Shown here: piece after piece, positions 32,613 through 63,862 of the stretch
How the letters are laid out: each line of letters opens with the position of its first letter
Position numbering within the stretch: the first letter of the stretch is position 1
Source: an uncultured Bacteroidales bacterium
GTDB lineage: Bacteria; Bacteroidota; Bacteroidia; Bacteroidales; Bacteroidaceae
Direction of reading: 5' to 3'
Assembly: GCA_902779845.1 (NCBI GenBank)
Contig: CACZCZ010000003.1
Location: forward strand, 124,001-188,000
DNA: 64,000 nucleotides
The notes under the pieces: generated by a model
Databases searched by the model: none
Seen by the model: only the letters and a program-made list of their open reading frames with translations
What the model was told of the DNA's origin: nothing
Made by a program: the position numbers and the translations under genes

Positions 32613-32829
<217 letters not shown>

Positions 32830-37484: not shown

Positions 37485-37500
37485 GCCGTAAGGCCATAGT

Positions 37501-37580
37501 CTTATTGCTTTTCTCACACATGAGAAACCTTTTTCTCACGTGTGAGAAATCTTTTTGCCACCTGTGGCAAAAACAATAAG
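37501..37580. repeat. Cluster of three perfect palindromes nested in an outer inverted repeat
   Basis: Outer arms CTTATTG (37501-37507) and CAATAAG (37574-37580). Inside are TTTCTCA-CACA-TGAGAAA (37510-37527), TTTCTCAC-GT-GTGAGAAA (37532-37549) and TTTTTGCCAC-CT-GTGGCAAAAA (37552-37573). The palindromes start 20-22 bases apart. A related array lies at 60897-61024. Confidence 0.9.
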
Positions 37581-37701
37581 ACCTTGCTCTTATGGCTGTA
37601 GGACCTTGCTCTTATGGCTGTAGGACCTTGCTCTTATGGCTGTAGGACCTTGCTCTTATGGCTGTAGGACCTTGCTCTTATGGCTGTAGGACCTTAGTCA
37701 T
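37580..37701. repeat. 22-bp perfect tandem repeat, five copies plus a partial
   Basis: The unit begins GACCTTGCTCTTATGG and ends CTGTAG. Five identical copies start at 37580, 37602, 37624, 37646 and 37668, and a broken sixth follows. There are no spacers. Two diverged copies of the unit occur at 45707-45750. The 296-base gap 37485-37780 contains no gene. Confidence 0.95.
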
Positions 37702-37707
37702 GTAATA

Positions 37708-45503: not shown

Positions 45504-45706
45504 TGGTTACTTTTGACAATGAGGAGGATTTGGTCGAATCGCGGAAATTTGCTAACACCGTAGAAAGATTATTTTGTGTTTGTGGGCCCTCTCTAAACTC
45601 CTCGCGTGGAGAACTCGTAACGAGCCAAAGTTTTACATCCGGATGCATATTATATTTTGTATTTTGTCTTTTATCTTCTTTTTTTCTCTTTTACTTTTTG
45701 TTTGAA

Positions 45707-45763
45707 GACCTTGCTCTTATGGCCGTAAGACCTTGCTCTTACGCCTCGAAGACCAAGGTCTTC
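45707..45763. repeat. Second locus of the 22-bp unit, ending in a hairpin
   Basis: Two 22-base units beginning GACCTTGCTCTTATGG and GACCTTGCTCTTACGC are followed by GAAGACC-AA-GGTCTTC and a T-run, so the array ends in a terminator-like hairpin. Unit length and sequence match the array at 37580. Confidence 0.85.
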
Positions 45764-45922
45764 TTTTTTCTTTCTTTTGACAGTGTAAAGGTATGAAAAA
45801 TATTGACGTACTCCAAATATTTCTCGAATTATTTTTACAAAATTTTCATAGCGTCCCATGATGCGTTGCGCGTTGCAGCGTTGCAGTTGAAAACACAGAG
45901 TAGGGTAGGTCAAAATTTCGCC

Positions 45923-48297: not shown

Positions 48298-49650
48298 ATG
48301 ACAAAAGACAGCGTTACACTCTTAGAACTGAACAGTCTGGTGCGCTCTGTCGTGGAGCAGAGCCTCGACGGCGAATACTGGCTGGAAGCGGAGCTCAGCG
48401 AGGCGCGGCTGGCACAGAACGGCCATTTCTATGTGGAGTTCGTGCAGAAGGATGCCTCGGGGCGAAGCTTCGTTGCTCGCGCGCGCGGGACCGTGTGGGC
48501 GCGAACCTATAATATGATAGCCCCCCTCTTCGAGCGTGCCACAGGCGAACGGCTGCGGGCAGGCATGAAGGTGAGGGTTCTGGTGACCGTAGCCTTCCAC
48601 GAGCTCTACGGTTACTCGCTGAATGTCGTCAACATCGACCCCTCGTTCACGCTGGGCGACTTGGCCCAGCGGCGCCGCGAGATTCTGGCGCAGCTGGAGG
48701 CCGACGGCATTCTGGAGGACAACCGCCAGCTGCCGCTGCCGTTGCTGCTGAAGCGCATTGCGGTGGTCTCGTCGGCAGGTGCGGCGGGCTACGGTGACTT
48801 CTGCGACCAACTGGCAAACAACGACTACGGCCTCTGCTTCCACGTGCAGCTCTTCCCTGCCGTGATGCAGGGCGCCAATGTGGAAGAGAGCGTACTGGCG
48901 GCCTTGGCTGCCATCGCCGACGAGGCTGAGCGGTGGGACTGCGTCGTGGTCATCCGTGGTGGAGGCGCCACCAGCGACCTGGCCGATTTCGACTCCTACC
49001 CGCTCGCAGCGGCTGTGGCACAGATGCCGTTGCCCGTGCTCGTCGGCATCGGCCATGAGCGCGACGAGACTGTGCTGGACTTCGTGGCGCACACCCGCGT
49101 GAAGACCCCCACTGCCGCTGCCGCCTTCATCATCGACCATGGCGCACAGCAGCTGGCCCTGCTCGACGAACTGCAAGGCCGCATCACCCAAGGCGTGGCG
49201 ATGCGCGTGGAGAACTTGCGACTGCAGTTGGCGCGCTTGGGGCTGAGCTTTGTGCAAAGTGCGAAGTTCAAAGTTCAAAGTTCAAAGTTGAAGGTGGAGG
49301 GCCTGGAACAACGCTTTGTGCAAGGTTCAAAGTTCAAAGTTCAAAGTTCAAAGTTGAAATTGGAGAGCCTGGAACAACGCTTTGGTCAAAGTTCAAAGCT
49401 CAAAGTTCAAAGCTCAAAGTTGAAATTGGAGAATCTGCAGGCGCGGCTGGCTGCCCTCGACCCTGTGCTGCAGCTGCAACGTGGCTACACACTGACCTTC
49501 ACCGCCGACGGACGGTTGGTGCATTCCGCAGCCGACGTGCATCGCGGCGAGCGCCTCACCACACGGTTTGCCGACGGCAGTGTGGAGAGCGTGGCAGACA
49601 ATGTACTACAGCGCAACGACGACCTCGACAGGACAATGGTCGGAGCCTAA
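48298..49650 (+). CDS. xseA: Exodeoxyribonuclease VII large subunit, with 66-bp tandem repeats
   Basis: Catalytic subunit of an ssDNA nuclease. An OB-fold N-terminus (about 1-100; [20 protein letters not shown]) precedes the nuclease domain ([43 protein letters not shown]). Residues 318-383 are three exact 22-residue units whose DNA is a GTTCAAA 7-bp array; the region is where XseA normally forms a long coiled coil. The C-terminal [10 protein letters not shown] strand is intact. At 450 residues it is normal to slightly long. No xseB follows; the 3' end overlaps xth. Confidence 0.93.
49249..49446. repeat. Three 66-bp tandem units inside xseA
   Basis: Units 49249-49314, 49315-49380 and 49381-49446 are in frame. 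Each starts with a Phe codon and GTGCAA- or GGTCAA-like sequence, then GTTCAAA repeats, and ends in a sequence coding LEQR or LQAR. Their 7-bp sub-period yields FKVQSSK-type heptads. Confidence 0.95.
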
Positions 49651-59737: not shown

Positions 59738-60283
59738 ATGATAAAGAATTATTATTTATTATTTATTATTTGTTTATTCCCCTTAGGGGCTTTCGCTCAA
59801 GAAACATTTACCCAGCACCTCACCCGTCAAGTAACGGGTGAGGGCCGGGTAGTGCTTCATCAAGACGCTGAGATCGATGCCCTGGTCAATTCCCCCGCTG
59901 CTCATACTGCTAATCATAGCGGCATCGTAAAGCCCGTTCATCAGGGTCATACCGAAACGGACAGCACATCTCTCGCTGCCGAGCCCGTGCGCGAGTTGCA
60001 CAGCGGGCACCGCTCTCAGATGGTTGGCTACCGCATTCAGGTCTATGCCGGCGGTAATAGCCGCAAGTCGAAGTCCGAGGCCCATTACATGGGTAATCTC
60101 GTACGTTCAAACTTCGGTAATGAGATGGCTGTTTACACCAGCTTCATTTCTCCACGATGGGTTTGCCGTGTCGGTGATTTCAAAAGTCGTGAGGAAGCAG
60201 CTGAACAGCTACGTAAAATGCGTGCTACGCAGAAATTCAGCGAGGCGAGCATCGTGAAGAGTAAAATATATGTCTATTACTAA
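59738..60283 (+). CDS. SPOR-domain exported protein
   Basis: A 181-residue protein with a signal peptide ([16 protein letters not shown]), a low-complexity linker and a C-terminal SPOR domain ([36 protein letters not shown]). SPOR domains bind denuded peptidoglycan at division sites. The reading frame overlaps folE by 14 bases. Division-site role inferred. Confidence 0.88.
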
Positions 60284-60845
60284 GCAGCAACAACAGGACG
60301 CTCTCGCTGAGCATTATTCCGACATCCTACAACTCTTGGGAGAAGATCCTTCACGTGAAGGGCTCCTCAAGACACCCATCCGCGTAGCCCGAGCTTGGAT
60401 GGAACTTACGCGCGGCTACGATGAAGATCCCATAGCCATCCTGCGCTCCGCCCTCTTCAAGGAGAGCTACCACAACATGGTGGTTGTGCGCGACATCGAG
60501 TTCTACTCCCTCTGTGAACACCACCTCCTACCCTTCTTTGGTCACGTACACATCGCCTACATCCCCAACGGCGAAATTACAGGACTCTCCAAACTCGCAC
60601 GCATCGTCAACACCTTCAGCCATCGCCTGCAGGTGCAGGAACGCATGACCGAAGAGATTGCCCACTGTATCCAGGAAGCCCTCAGCCCGCAGGGCGTCAT
60701 GGTTGTCGTCGAAGCCCGCCACCTCTGCATGCAGATGCGCGGCGTCGCCAAGCAGGATGCCAACACCACTACCATGCACTACATCGGCGCCTTCGAACAC
60801 GCCGAGACACGTCAAGAGTTCCTCGACCAGCTCTTCAAGGAGTAA
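60270..60845 (+). CDS. folE: GTP cyclohydrolase I
   Basis: Makes dihydroneopterin triphosphate from GTP for folate. Zinc ligands are Cys82 and His85 in [10 protein letters not shown] and Cys153 in [26 protein letters not shown] is a family motif. At 191 residues it is full length. The last 21 bases including the stop are duplicated just downstream at 60852-60872. Confidence 0.97.
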
Positions 60846-60872
60846 ACAGAAGACCAGCTCTTCAAGGAGTAA
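60825..60872. repeat. Duplicated folE 3' end
   Basis: GACCAGCTCTTCAAGGAGTA plus A occurs at 60825-60845 (the end of folE) and again at 60852-60872, 6 bases apart, so the final codons and stop have been copied. Confidence 0.9.
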
Positions 60873-60896
60873 GCTGAAGGCCATGGTCCTCAAGCG

Positions 60897-61024
60897 AGTT
60901 CCACGCATGGAACTCCCCATAAGAGTTTACTCTTATTGCTTTTGCCACCAGTGGCAAAACCATTTGCCACTGGTGGCAAATCTATTTATCATGTGTGATA
61001 AAACGTTTTATTACATGTGATAAA
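60897..61024. repeat. Array of six palindromes at about 22-base spacing
   Basis: In order: AGTTCCA-CGCA-TGGAACT (60897), ATAAGAG-TTTA-CTCTTAT (60919), TTTTGCCAC-CA-GTGGCAAAA (60940), ATTTGCCAC-TG-GTGGCAAAT (60962), TTTATCA-TGTG-TGATAAA (60985), and TTTATTACATGTGATAAA (61007, one mismatch). Start-to-start distances are 22, 21, 22, 23 and 22. The third and fourth resemble the last palindrome at 37552, and both loci share TCTTATTGCTTTT. Confidence 0.92.
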
Positions 61025-61093
61025 TCCGCGCGCGCTGTACTTTTATAGGCATATTTGCACATGAAATTTACATTATCTCCACCTTTTTATGAC

Positions 61094-61152
61094 TATCTCC
61101 ACCTGCTTAACATCTTATCATTAAATGAAATAGCTGCAAGCAGGTGGAGATA
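61094..61152. repeat. Long inverted repeat TATCTCCACCTGCTT
   Basis: Perfect 15-bp arms at 61094-61108 and 61138-61152, with 29 bases between. A partial direct copy, ATCTCCACCT, lies at about 61074. Confidence 0.85.
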
Positions 61153-61194: not shown

Positions 61195-61342
61195 GAGTTA
61201 ATAGGTTAACAAGTTAACAGGTTAACAGGTTAACAGGTTGGCAAGTTAACGGGTTAAAGGGTTAACAGGTTAACAGGTTGGCAAGTTAACGGGTTAAAGG
61301 GTTAACAGGTTGGCAAATTAACAGGTTAACAGGTTAATAGGT
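61195..61342. repeat. GTTAACAG 8-bp-period array
   Basis: More than fifteen units such as GTTAACAG, GTTGGCAA, GTTAACGG and GTTAAAGG reach into the last codons of the GH2 gene. No unique spacers, so not CRISPR. Confidence 0.9.
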
Positions 61343-63862
61343 TCGAAGGGTGAGTTTGGCAGGCTTCAAGTCCTCGGCGGTAGCGGTGAGGGTGACGGTG
61401 GCGGGGGTGGTGCCGGCACGGAGGATGGCGAGGGCGCGACCTTCGTAGAGGCAGCGGTGGTTCACGAGCTGGGTGAGTTCGTCGCTATAGTGGTCGCCGG
61501 AAGAGACGGCTACCAGCCTCACCCCTAACCCCTCTCCCGTGGGCGAGGGGGACTTTGAGGGTTGGGACTCCACGGTGAAGGTGACGTCAAGGTTGGCGGT
61601 TGGGACGACCCTTCCTTTCTTGTCAATGGCTTCTACGCGGATGTGCTGGAGGTCAATGCCGTCGGCGCGCCAGAAGGTGGCCCCCCCTACGGCCCCCAAG
61701 GGGGCTTCTTTACCTTTGTGAACAGAGGATGAAGGTGTTGTGGTCCCCTTAGAGTTGAGGGTTGGGGGAAGGTCGGGGACAAGGCGCAAGGCAACGGCTG
61801 GGCCAGCGGTTTCGGCGCGGTGGCGGGCGACGATCTTACCGTCGGTGCGGGCGATGGCTTCGATATAGCCGGGCTCGTAGGTGAACTTGTCCCAACGAAT
61901 CTGGTTGCGGGCCTTGGGGTTCTTTCGGTCGTTCTGCTTGCGGCCAAGGCTCTTGCCGTTCATGACGAGTTCCACTTCGTCGGCGTTCGTGTAGATGGTG
62001 AGGTTGAGTTCATCGCCGGGCGTGCGTGTCCAATGGTCGGTGAGGCGGCGGATGCGCTGCTTGACACCATTCCAGTCGATGTCCTGACTCTGCTCCTGAA
62101 AGCAGAGGTGCACGACGGGTTCATCGGAGAAGATGCTCTTGGCGAGATAGGCGTTGGGCTTCGTGGTGAGGTCGATGTAGAAGACGCCCTGCGCCCAGCC
62201 CTTGGCGGGCCAGCCCTGGCTCTCGCCGAGGTAGTCGATGGCTCCCCAGTAGGCGAGGCCGATGACCTTTGAGAGATCCATCTCGTAGTAGTTGGGTCCC
62301 ATGGCGGCGGTGGTGGCCTCGCTCTGGTAGAACATCATCCAGGGGAACTTCTGGCCGTCGCCAGGGAAATACATATACCTATAATTATATGCGGCGATAT
62401 CGGTCTCCATCACGAGGGGTGCCGGCAGGGAGTCGGTCTCGAGGGAACGGCCACGGGGGTGCATAGCAACGGTGATGAGGCGCGAATCGTCGTAACGCAG
62501 CAGCAGCTGTTTCTGCATGCGGTAAGGCGTCACGCCCCAGTCGGCGTAGGGGATATTCCAATAGGTCTGCAGCTCGTTGCCGAGGCTCCAGAAGACGATG
62601 CTGGGGTGGTTGCGGTCGCGCCGTATCCACTCTGGGATGTCGTGCTGCCAGAGCGCAGTCCACTCTGCACGGCCACCGCAGTACTGCGTCAGCCATTTGT
62701 CGTAGAGCTCATCCACCACGAGGATGCCGAGGGAGTCGCAAAGGTCGAGGAGACTCTCGCTGTAGGGGTTGTGGGAGGTGCGGATATGGTTGAAGCCGAA
62801 CTCCTTGAGCAGGCGCAGACGTTTCTCTATGGCACGCGGATAGGCGGCAGCGCCGAGGGCGCCGAGGGTGTGGTGGTTGGCGATGCCCTTGAGGATGACC
62901 TTACGGCCGTTGAGTTTCATACCGAACTCGGGCGAGAACTCCAGCTGGCGGATGCCGAAGCGCGACGAAGTGACATCTATGACTGCACCGTCGGCGTTGA
63001 GAAGTTCCACGTGCAGCGTGTAGAGGAAGGGGTCGTCGATGTCCCAACGATGGGCGCCGGGCAGTACGATGGCAGGCAGATCATACTCGCGTGTCTTCTG
63101 GTTGCTGCGGAAACGCTGCTCGGAAGTCTGCTCCGCCACGCAGACACCTTTATTATCTGTCACACGCGCACGAAGGGTGACGGTCTTCAATCCCTTCTCG
63201 TTGGCTGTCAGTTCCACGCGAGCGAAGATGCTGTCTATACCGTTAGTAGTGATACGCAGGGGATGACGCGTGAAGAAGTTGACAGGGTCGGTGGTGATGA
63301 TGTGGACATCGCGGTAGAGGCCGGCACCGGTGTACCAACGGCTGTTGTTGGCGGCACGAGTGTCAGCGCGCACGGCAAGCACATTCTTCTCGCCCCACTT
63401 CAGGAGCCTCGTGATGTCGGCCTCGAAGCCCAGGTAACCATAGTCTGTTTTGCCGATGAAATGGCCGTTTAAGTAGGCATCACCCACATATAGGATGCCC
63501 TCGAAATCGATAAGCACACGACGGCCACGCCAAGATTCATCCGGTGTGAAAGTCTTGCGGTACCAGCCGATGCCCATCTCCTTGAAGCCACGGGGGGATA
63601 GGCGGCTCTTCACGTTGGCGCCGGGGTCGCTGGTATCAGGGCGCTCGTCCTCGCCGGGAGCTACCCATGGCTGCTCGATTTGGAAGTCATGGGGGAGGTC
63701 CACGGATCGCCAGCCGCTGTCGTCAAGGGTAAGGCTGGCCCCGTCGGCGATGTCGCCGGCATGGAAGCGCCAGCCAAAGTTCCATAGCAAGGATGTACGA
63801 GGTGCAGCCTGTACCACTACGGTCAGCATCAGCGCTGCAAGAAACAGTTTGAGCGTTCTCAT
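61334..63862 (-). CDS. Beta-galactosidase (GH2), exported, with repeat insertions
   Basis: An 842-residue glycosidase with a signal peptide ([15 protein letters not shown]), a jelly-roll N-terminal domain, an Ig-like domain and a TIM barrel. The acid/base Glu430 is in [11 protein letters not shown] and the nucleophile is probably Glu515 in [12 protein letters not shown]. The C-terminal region carries two repeat-coded insertions (about 710-735 [10 protein letters not shown], and about 768-780 [10 protein letters not shown]). Probably hydrolyses beta-galactosides in the periplasm. ATG 63862 overlaps the ispD stop (ATGA). Confidence 0.92.
61529..61550. repeat. GC-rich palindromic element in the GH2 gene
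   Basis: CCCCTCTCCC-GT-GGGCGAGGGG (one mismatch), in frame, coding PTGEG on the minus strand. It is related to the recJ and thrC elements. Confidence 0.8.
61683..61770. repeat. Second GC-rich insertion in the GH2 gene
   Basis: GCCCCC-AA-GGGGGC at 61692-61705 and adjoining repeat-like DNA encode [20 protein letters not shown], an insert not expected in the GH2 fold. Confidence 0.6.

Follow-up and report, generated by a model that had tools for sequence, protein, structure and literature searches.

The window, i.e., the whole 64,000-nucleotide stretch of DNA that was analysed, comes from an uncultured Bacteroidales bacterium. Towards its right end, a folE-like ORF is followed by seven dyad-symmetric units at 60873-61026 whose centres are exactly 22 bp apart, and these are followed by a convergent ORF. 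The features of this locus are as follows.

60270..60845, + strand: folE-like ORF (GTP cyclohydrolase I), immediately upstream of the array; its sequence is FolE-like and relatives were found
60825..60878, + strand: duplication of the folE 3' end in 27-bp copies (GACCAGCTCTTCAAGGAG...), resembling an AAGACC/AAGAGC unit
60873..60894, unstranded: unit 0, imperfect, GCTGAAGGCCA^TGGTCCTCAAG, score 5/7
60895..60916, unstranded: unit 1, CGAGTTCCACG^CATGGAACTCC, GTTCCAC family
60917..60938, unstranded: unit 2, CCATAAGAGTT^TACTCTTATTG, AAG family
60939..60960, unstranded: unit 3, CTTTTGCCACC^AGTGGCAAAAC, T family, with the 18-mer pattern TTTGCCACNNGTGGCAAA
60961..60982, unstranded: unit 4, CATTTGCCACT^GGTGGCAAATC, T family
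60983..61004, unstranded: unit 5, TATTTATCATG^TGTGATAAAAC, T family
61005..61026, unstranded: unit 6, GTTTTATTACA^TGTGATAAATC, T family, one T/G pair in the arm
61334..63862, − strand: convergent ORF of 842 aa, which we take from its sequence to be glycoside hydrolase family 2-like

The first-pass annotation had described six evenly spaced palindromes at 60897..61024, the last of them imperfect. All six were found, the imperfection being the single T/G pair of unit 6, but a seventh, imperfect unit (60873-60894) stands ahead of them and the phased stretch is thus 60873-61026. The even spacing is exact when measured by centres; the start-to-start values of 21-23 given earlier are not a real spread, since they result from unequal arm lengths. 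The phased array begins inside a third, partial copy of the 27-bp segment duplicated from the 3' end of folE, and the duplicated coding text GACCAGCTCTTC is already similar to an AAG-type unit. The closest named match of FolE was "uncultured Prevotellaceae bacterium isolate RUG192" (91% identity). Six relatives had no array directly behind folE, but the use of this locus as an empty-site test was dropped because their downstream genes differ, which leaves the folE site with no clean empty counterpart.

Other repeats are found in the same region. An 8-bp unit, GTTAACAG, forms a tandem array of 18 copies (61197-61343) that adjoins the palindrome array, and 7-bp tandem arrays occur elsewhere in the window, e.g., at 49255-49289 and 32685-32807. 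The sequence TATCTCCACCT is repeated and inverted at 61074-61152 as a separate hairpin, with arms at 61094-61108 and 61138-61152 that are complementary at 15 of 15 positions and 29 nt apart. GC-rich palindromic stretches (61512-61560 and 61683-61720) lie in frame within the GH2-like ORF; a similar reading, PSLxGRAGGES, was seen in a purM-like ORF (L044:13425-14705) as well as in the proA loop of the relatives G110 and G270 (L233, L236), the same loop that carries a phased array in this genome and in the relatives G238 and G237.

Two further phased arrays were found within the window.

37486..37705, unstranded: second window array, 10 units, one AAG-type and three T-family followed by AAG-type
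45701..45766, unstranded: third window array, three AAG-family units

The former contains, behind its three T-family palindromes, a perfect 5.3-fold 22-bp repeat (37580-37695), a recent expansion of units. The latter fails a stricter detector filter, having fewer than four units and one perfect unit only.

Whether such phasing exceeds the rate expected by chance, a point raised by the first-pass annotation, was addressed by scanning stretches of this genome. Pairs of strong palindromes were analysed in 464 kb of this genome (the window and 20 other stretches, 12 of them chosen for a clear BLAST hit). Among the 52 pairs no more than 60 bp apart, 48 were spaced by a multiple of 11 bp, including 15 spaced by 22 bp and 12 by 44 bp, and a Markov shuffle contained zero such pairs. 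The summed palindrome scores were maximal at 22 bp when compared with 19-26 bp. A single array detector was applied at each of nine pitches (18-26 bp) to a total of 852 kb made up partly of chosen stretches, and reported 27 arrays at 22 bp versus 4 at the other eight pitches together, and 0 arrays at 22 bp in a Markov-shuffled copy. In the 16 stretches (320 kb) that had not been chosen by a hit, three arrays were detected at 22 bp, one of which (L036) held a very weak BLAST match (E = 3), and none at the other eight pitches. A proportional estimate from these 320 kb gives roughly 27 arrays per genome, and 27 were already seen in the partly chosen 29% of the genome. Chance is thus excluded, and the observation withstood the refutation test that the first-pass annotation had set for it. 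The array pattern is real, genome-wide, and genus-level. When 201 genomes of the family were searched for the 18-mer pattern TTTGCCACNNGTGGCAAA alone, two matched, the present genome with 21 sites and G127 with one.

The same detector was applied to relatives, comparing arrays at 22 bp with the sum of the other eight pitches, and reported 12 versus 4 in G238, 5 versus 1 in G010, and 2 versus 1 in G060. In 159 kb of G110, where T-family matches are present, one array was found at 22 bp versus two at other pitches (at 19 bp). No array of any of the nine pitches was detected in 80 kb of G038, and 80 kb of G078 contained none at 22 bp and one at the other eight; RAYT-like genes, discussed below, are present in both genomes. 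No 22-bp array was found in 1.43 Mb of other Bacteroidota. Loci centred on FolE were also taken from 80 named genomes; neither L072 nor L073 contained an array, and 79 of the loci (L073-L151) gave 0 arrays at 22 bp versus 9 at the other eight pitches. In congeners, the pitch is kept and the palindromes are partly different; the words of G010 and G060 differ, as in TTTCCCAC..GTGGGAAA, TTTATCAC..GTGATAAA, and TCAACA^CGTTGA. A word search for two phased T-family units matched 13 of 139 genomes of the genus versus one of 139 for the reversed control, the highest counts being those of G010 (41), G314 (30), and the present genome (29). Within the order, the present genome was the only one of 393 to match the phased T-family pattern, a search that genomes with other palindrome words would escape. 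Searches by exact pattern or by blastn gave no match in phages, plasmids, or viral contigs.

The arrays are dispersed, and matching loci of sister species may have or lack them. Two arrays of this genome (C11, 18 units, and C18, 15 units) and one of G238 (C22, 16 units) align over 333-408 bp, and the available flanks show no match to each other; between C18 and C22, the order of units is kept and the differences are whole units. A comparison with orthologous loci lacking arrays had been proposed in the first-pass annotation and was carried out. Between matching flanks, arrays are present at L042 and L043 and absent from the corresponding G238 loci (L281 and L284, respectively), and an array of G238 (L282) is absent from the matching L312 of this genome. 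The L043 array begins at the stop codon; in G238, the initial half-site, AATAAGACCT, is retained and the sequences diverge after it. Some arrays are part of longer repeats, since the 303 bp (75% identity) shared by the C1 and C4 arrays (L013/L014) extend past the array; arrays at L208 and L312 likewise lie within longer repeats that go past them. A segment of ~1.7 kb with a thioesterase-like gene (named by eye) and an array (L037:2520-4236) is missing at the matching G238 site, and this difference is uninformative on arrays alone because it takes in a gene.

With regard to gene context, 37 of 40 arrays (this genome and G238) were located outside called genes longer than 150 codons. A crude ORF caller assigned both neighbours for 35 of the 40: 15 arrays lie between convergent, 16 between co-directional, and 4 between divergent genes, and the convergent arrangement is over-represented when compared to the background gaps of this genome (15/35 versus 27/173, p = 0.0008). 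Array edges facing a gene 3' end were within 20 bp of it in 13 of 47 cases, and edges facing a 5' end within 30 bp in 1 of 25. The arrays thus prefer gene 3' ends and are found mostly behind genes.

The anatomy of the unit was analysed in 251 distinct units from 44 arrays in DNA of this genome, G238, and G237. Offset 1 is free, 70% of the units have C..G at offset 2, and 80% have an A/T pair at offset 7; C also dominates at offset 2 in G010 and G060, and less so in G110. The half-sites fall into families, including TTTnyCAC, AAGnnC, and GTTCCAC, plus others, and only 2 of 214 units in the stretches from this genome and G238 combine halves from two of these three families. In this genome, agreement was 0.75 between the two halves of a unit, 0.52 between adjacent halves over the linker, and 0.35 between halves of different arrays. 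T-family halves match each other above what half-site frequencies predict at position 5 (0.95 versus 0.59) and position 6 (0.68 versus 0.39), as do AAG halves at position 4 (0.79 versus 0.41). Symmetry is not kept everywhere: position 3 of the AAG family is mismatched in many copies, and agreement between the halves there is at the chance level (0.29 versus 0.28). Asymmetry of the central dinucleotide was considered as a recombinase-like crossover mark and dropped because position 1 was inconsistent between sets: halves matched below expectation in this genome (AAG 0.18 versus 0.43; T 0.21 versus 0.30) and above it for the T family in other species (0.57 versus 0.29) and for AAG in G238 (0.47 versus 0.34).

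The proA gene provides a natural experiment, with one place, three species, three spellings, and one geometry. The proA ORF of this genome contains three T-family units in frame (L050:7225-7290). At the same place and in the same register, without a stop codon, G238 has 66 bp reading TTTTGCCATGCGTGATAAAA / TTTTCCCACTGGTGGGAAGA / TGTCCCACGCGTGGGACA and G237 has 66 bp reading TGTTCCACTAGTGGGACG / TGTTCCACCGGTGGAACG / TGTTCCACTAGTGGAACA, and in nine other relatives proA is shorter there. Among the 24 dyad pairs compared between this genome and G237, 16 are unchanged, 5 are compensated on both sides, and 3 are mismatched in one species; the compensated and mismatched pairs numbered 3 and 4 for this genome and G238, and 4 and 5 for G238 and G237. 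Identity between this genome and G237 drops from 0.88 in each of the two flanks to 0.65 within the insert, and the flanks shared with G238 are 86.9% and 81.7% identical by BLAST. The protein sequence of the loop is not conserved, whereas the dyad geometry is.

The first-pass annotation had proposed three explanations, namely a mobile palindromic element inserting next to itself, dimer-binding sites on one DNA face, or a chain of RNA hairpins. The first is best supported, in outline, by the unrelated flanks, the sites with and without arrays, and the whole-unit differences; dimer sites also fit, and RNA hairpins are disfavoured, for reasons given below. Our best reading is that the units are REP-like in behaviour, mobile, and acting as DNA rather than RNA, and we consider it somewhat better than an even bet that the array belongs to a family of short palindromic DNA elements which are dispersed through the genome and continue to evolve. 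A unit comprises 22 bp, with mirror half-sites around a free central dinucleotide and a linker of ~4 bp, and pairing within a unit involves half-sites of one family and almost never two. Arrays may grow by tandem copying of 22-bp units and may spread to new sites as single units or multi-unit blocks, mostly behind stop codons, with in-frame replacement of a dispensable gene loop, as in proA, also possible. Dyad symmetry would persist because units are acted on at the DNA level, with a symmetric dimer binding the duplex or with the single strand folded into a hairpin. In this reading, the pitch, the dispersal, the half-site families, the sites with and without arrays, the symmetric change in proA, and the preference for 3' ends are observed, and movement by an enzyme, the nature of that enzyme, and the cause of the pitch are inferred.

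A bolder proposal, which we regard as doubtful but worth stating, is a genus-specific system of paralogous DNA-handling proteins. Each would recognise one half-site family, the 22-bp sites would be stacked in mixed chromosomal arrays, and specificities and sites would co-evolve, so that palindromes are respelled symmetrically even in a coding gene.

Operator-like sites are another possibility, albeit an unlikely one, in which each duplex unit would bind a homodimer, the 22-bp pitch would pack the dimers on one face of the helix, and the arrays would serve chromosome organisation or insulation behind genes, with spread being secondary. The free central dinucleotide, the preferences at offsets 2 and 7, the dominance of C at offset 2 in other species, the exact pitch in several species, and the tolerance of mixed halves inside a family but hardly between families are all consistent with protein binding. 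The earlier remark on helical turns carries little weight: with 11 bp to a turn, 22 bp makes two turns, but copying of 22-bp units would yield an exact pitch as well. If helical phase alone mattered, pitches of 21 or 23 should turn up occasionally. Moreover, these sites are without a known binding protein, the several unrelated half-site families of one genome would call for either several proteins or one of loose specificity, and the block copies in unrelated flanks and the in-frame placement in proA look mobile.

A neutral satellite is, in our estimation, quite improbable. Slipped-strand duplication would set the 22-bp period and hairpin-templated (quasipalindrome) correction would keep the symmetry, with no function involved. 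The perfect recent expansion at 37580-37695, the symmetry in proA without a conserved protein sequence, and the onset of the array in the duplicated, half-palindromic end of folE are in line with such a process. However, the same T-family words occur at dozens of unlinked loci (21 exact and 29 phased matches), and dispersal is therefore needed; in addition, position 3 of the AAG family stays mismatched in many copies and cross-family hybrids are nearly absent, neither of which favours such correction.

A chain of RNA hairpins, for instance transcript stabilisers behind genes, is very unlikely. The arrays do favour gene 3' ends and their units can form stems of 7-9 bp, but the non-Watson-Crick cells at offsets 3-9 (459 in total: 85 GU, 77 AC, 297 other) show no G-U excess, and when co-directional or intragenic arrays were read on the sense strand, GU was rather less frequent than AC (19 versus 34, p = 0.053). 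The arrays occur in all gene orientations, including between divergent genes (4/35) and within proA, an RNA does not need an exact 22-nt pitch, and the window gave 0 matches to Rfam at gathering scores. TTTT followed the stem in 26 of 396 unit-strands of this genome and preceded it in 34 of 396, and followed it in 3 of 170 in G238. Because GU is not favoured and TTTT is rarely found after the stem, a role at the DNA level is suggested.

Chance or a row of intrinsic terminators hardly deserves credence in spite of the position behind a gene and the partly AT-rich arms, and is already refuted as far as the data go, by the pitch statistics and by TTTT being commoner before the stem than after it, where a terminator wants it. 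The first-pass annotation had set the array apart from terminators, plain tandem repeats, and CRISPR arrays, and the unit listing, the tandem repeats, and the TTTT counts agree with this judgement.

RAYT-like HUH proteins are our preferred candidate for the agent that acts on the units, as a lead and not a result. A 434-aa protein (L152:1261-2565) resembles RAYTs, with scores of 22.8 bits for Y1_Tnp (cut-off 23; 24.1 in the genome search) and 33.6 bits for REP_Tyr_transpos (cut-off 80). Searches with this protein matched eight loci in this genome, one of them broken (C12), and 89 of 139 genomes of the genus. The RAYT-like loci read were the following.

L152:1261-2565
L036:17220-18404
L352:1486-2580
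L044:14714-16165
L358:1077-2381

In all five copies, the best NCBIfam name was REP_Tyr_transpos, with every score under the cut-off (14-34 bits versus 80). All five have an H-x-H motif and four also have Y...NP; we assume the usual meaning for both motifs. The family is diverse, with at least eight loci in one genome and a common C-terminal region, which no Pfam model convincingly fits; the central part of some copies is a long stretch of low complexity.

One RAYT-like copy of this genome (C2) ends where a 12-unit array begins, and in G238 arrays adjoin two of three copies (C30 and C13). Over 24 inspected RAYT-like loci, some with partial flanks (C1 of this genome downstream only; C4 and C6 ~1 kb per side), an array was found within ~1.5 kb at 5, versus ~3 expected from array density, and G060 has two arrays and no RAYT-like match; the RAYT-like proteins are thus a lead only. 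Of the 13 genomes with T-family arrays, 11 also had RAYT-like genes, compared with 78 of the 126 genomes in which these arrays are absent (p = 0.13). At the foot of the unit, GT[AG]G was found in 10 of 396 unit-strands of this genome and 4 of 170 of G238, where chance predicts ~3.9%, and CGTC in 4 of 396 and 2 of 170, respectively. With the low protein scores, the locus count, G060, the p-value, and no GT[AG]G enrichment, RAYT as a proven agent is not upheld. Should a RAYT-like protein be the agent, the units would be REP-like mobile elements with a strict pitch.

Several known systems share features with these arrays. CRISPR arrays also have a regular pitch, but the palindrome arrays repeat symmetry and not sequence, and a CRISPR array was rejected in the absence of a constant repeat and unique spacers. 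Plasmid iterons are near-identical direct repeats of ~22 bp in a row at a replication origin; the likeness lies in successive repeats of ~22 bp, whereas the units described here are palindromic, diverse, and spread over chromosome contigs, with no plasmid match. Rickettsia palindromic elements and similar repeats are palindromes that occur in frame inside genes, as the array does here in a housekeeping gene (proA), but the present arrays consist of phased 22-bp units and are mainly intergenic.

The closest resemblance is to REP/BIME sequences and their RAYTs (TnpA_REP), which share short, high-copy, mostly extragenic palindromes, species variants, and clusters; RAYT-like genes, all scoring below the NCBIfam cut-off and missing from array-bearing G060, are also present in this genome. 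As in REPs, short palindromes are many and mainly intergenic (27 arrays in 852 kb; 37/40 extragenic). The differences are that the GTAG/GTGG or CGTC foot tag of REPs is missing here as an enriched feature, that the 22-bp arrays have an exact head-to-tail pitch and several unrelated palindrome families per array, and that the RAYT genes are flanked by arrays not clearly above chance. Because the tag was looked for and is not enriched, the arrays are classified as REP-like and not as REPs. One study names a Bacteroidetes RAYT subclass, 2.6, with atypical structures on its flanks, and further subclasses that lack REPs but have a large C-terminal domain (PMC6006769); in another, clustered REPs are described and Rickettsia palindromic elements (RPE) are named (PMC3733652). 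A literature search, with subscription journals and preprints outside its reach, found no description of phased palindrome arrays, and as far as it shows, the arrays are best regarded as a new sort of mobile palindromic element with REP-like behaviour. To our knowledge, a fixed 22-bp pitch with changing symmetric words is not a property of REP, BIME, iterons, or CRISPR. This combination of a fixed pitch and free symmetric spelling distinguishes selection for symmetry from selection for a given sequence, and were an enzyme or dimer found that enforces the geometry, it would be a new means by which bacteria establish and maintain ordered DNA sites.
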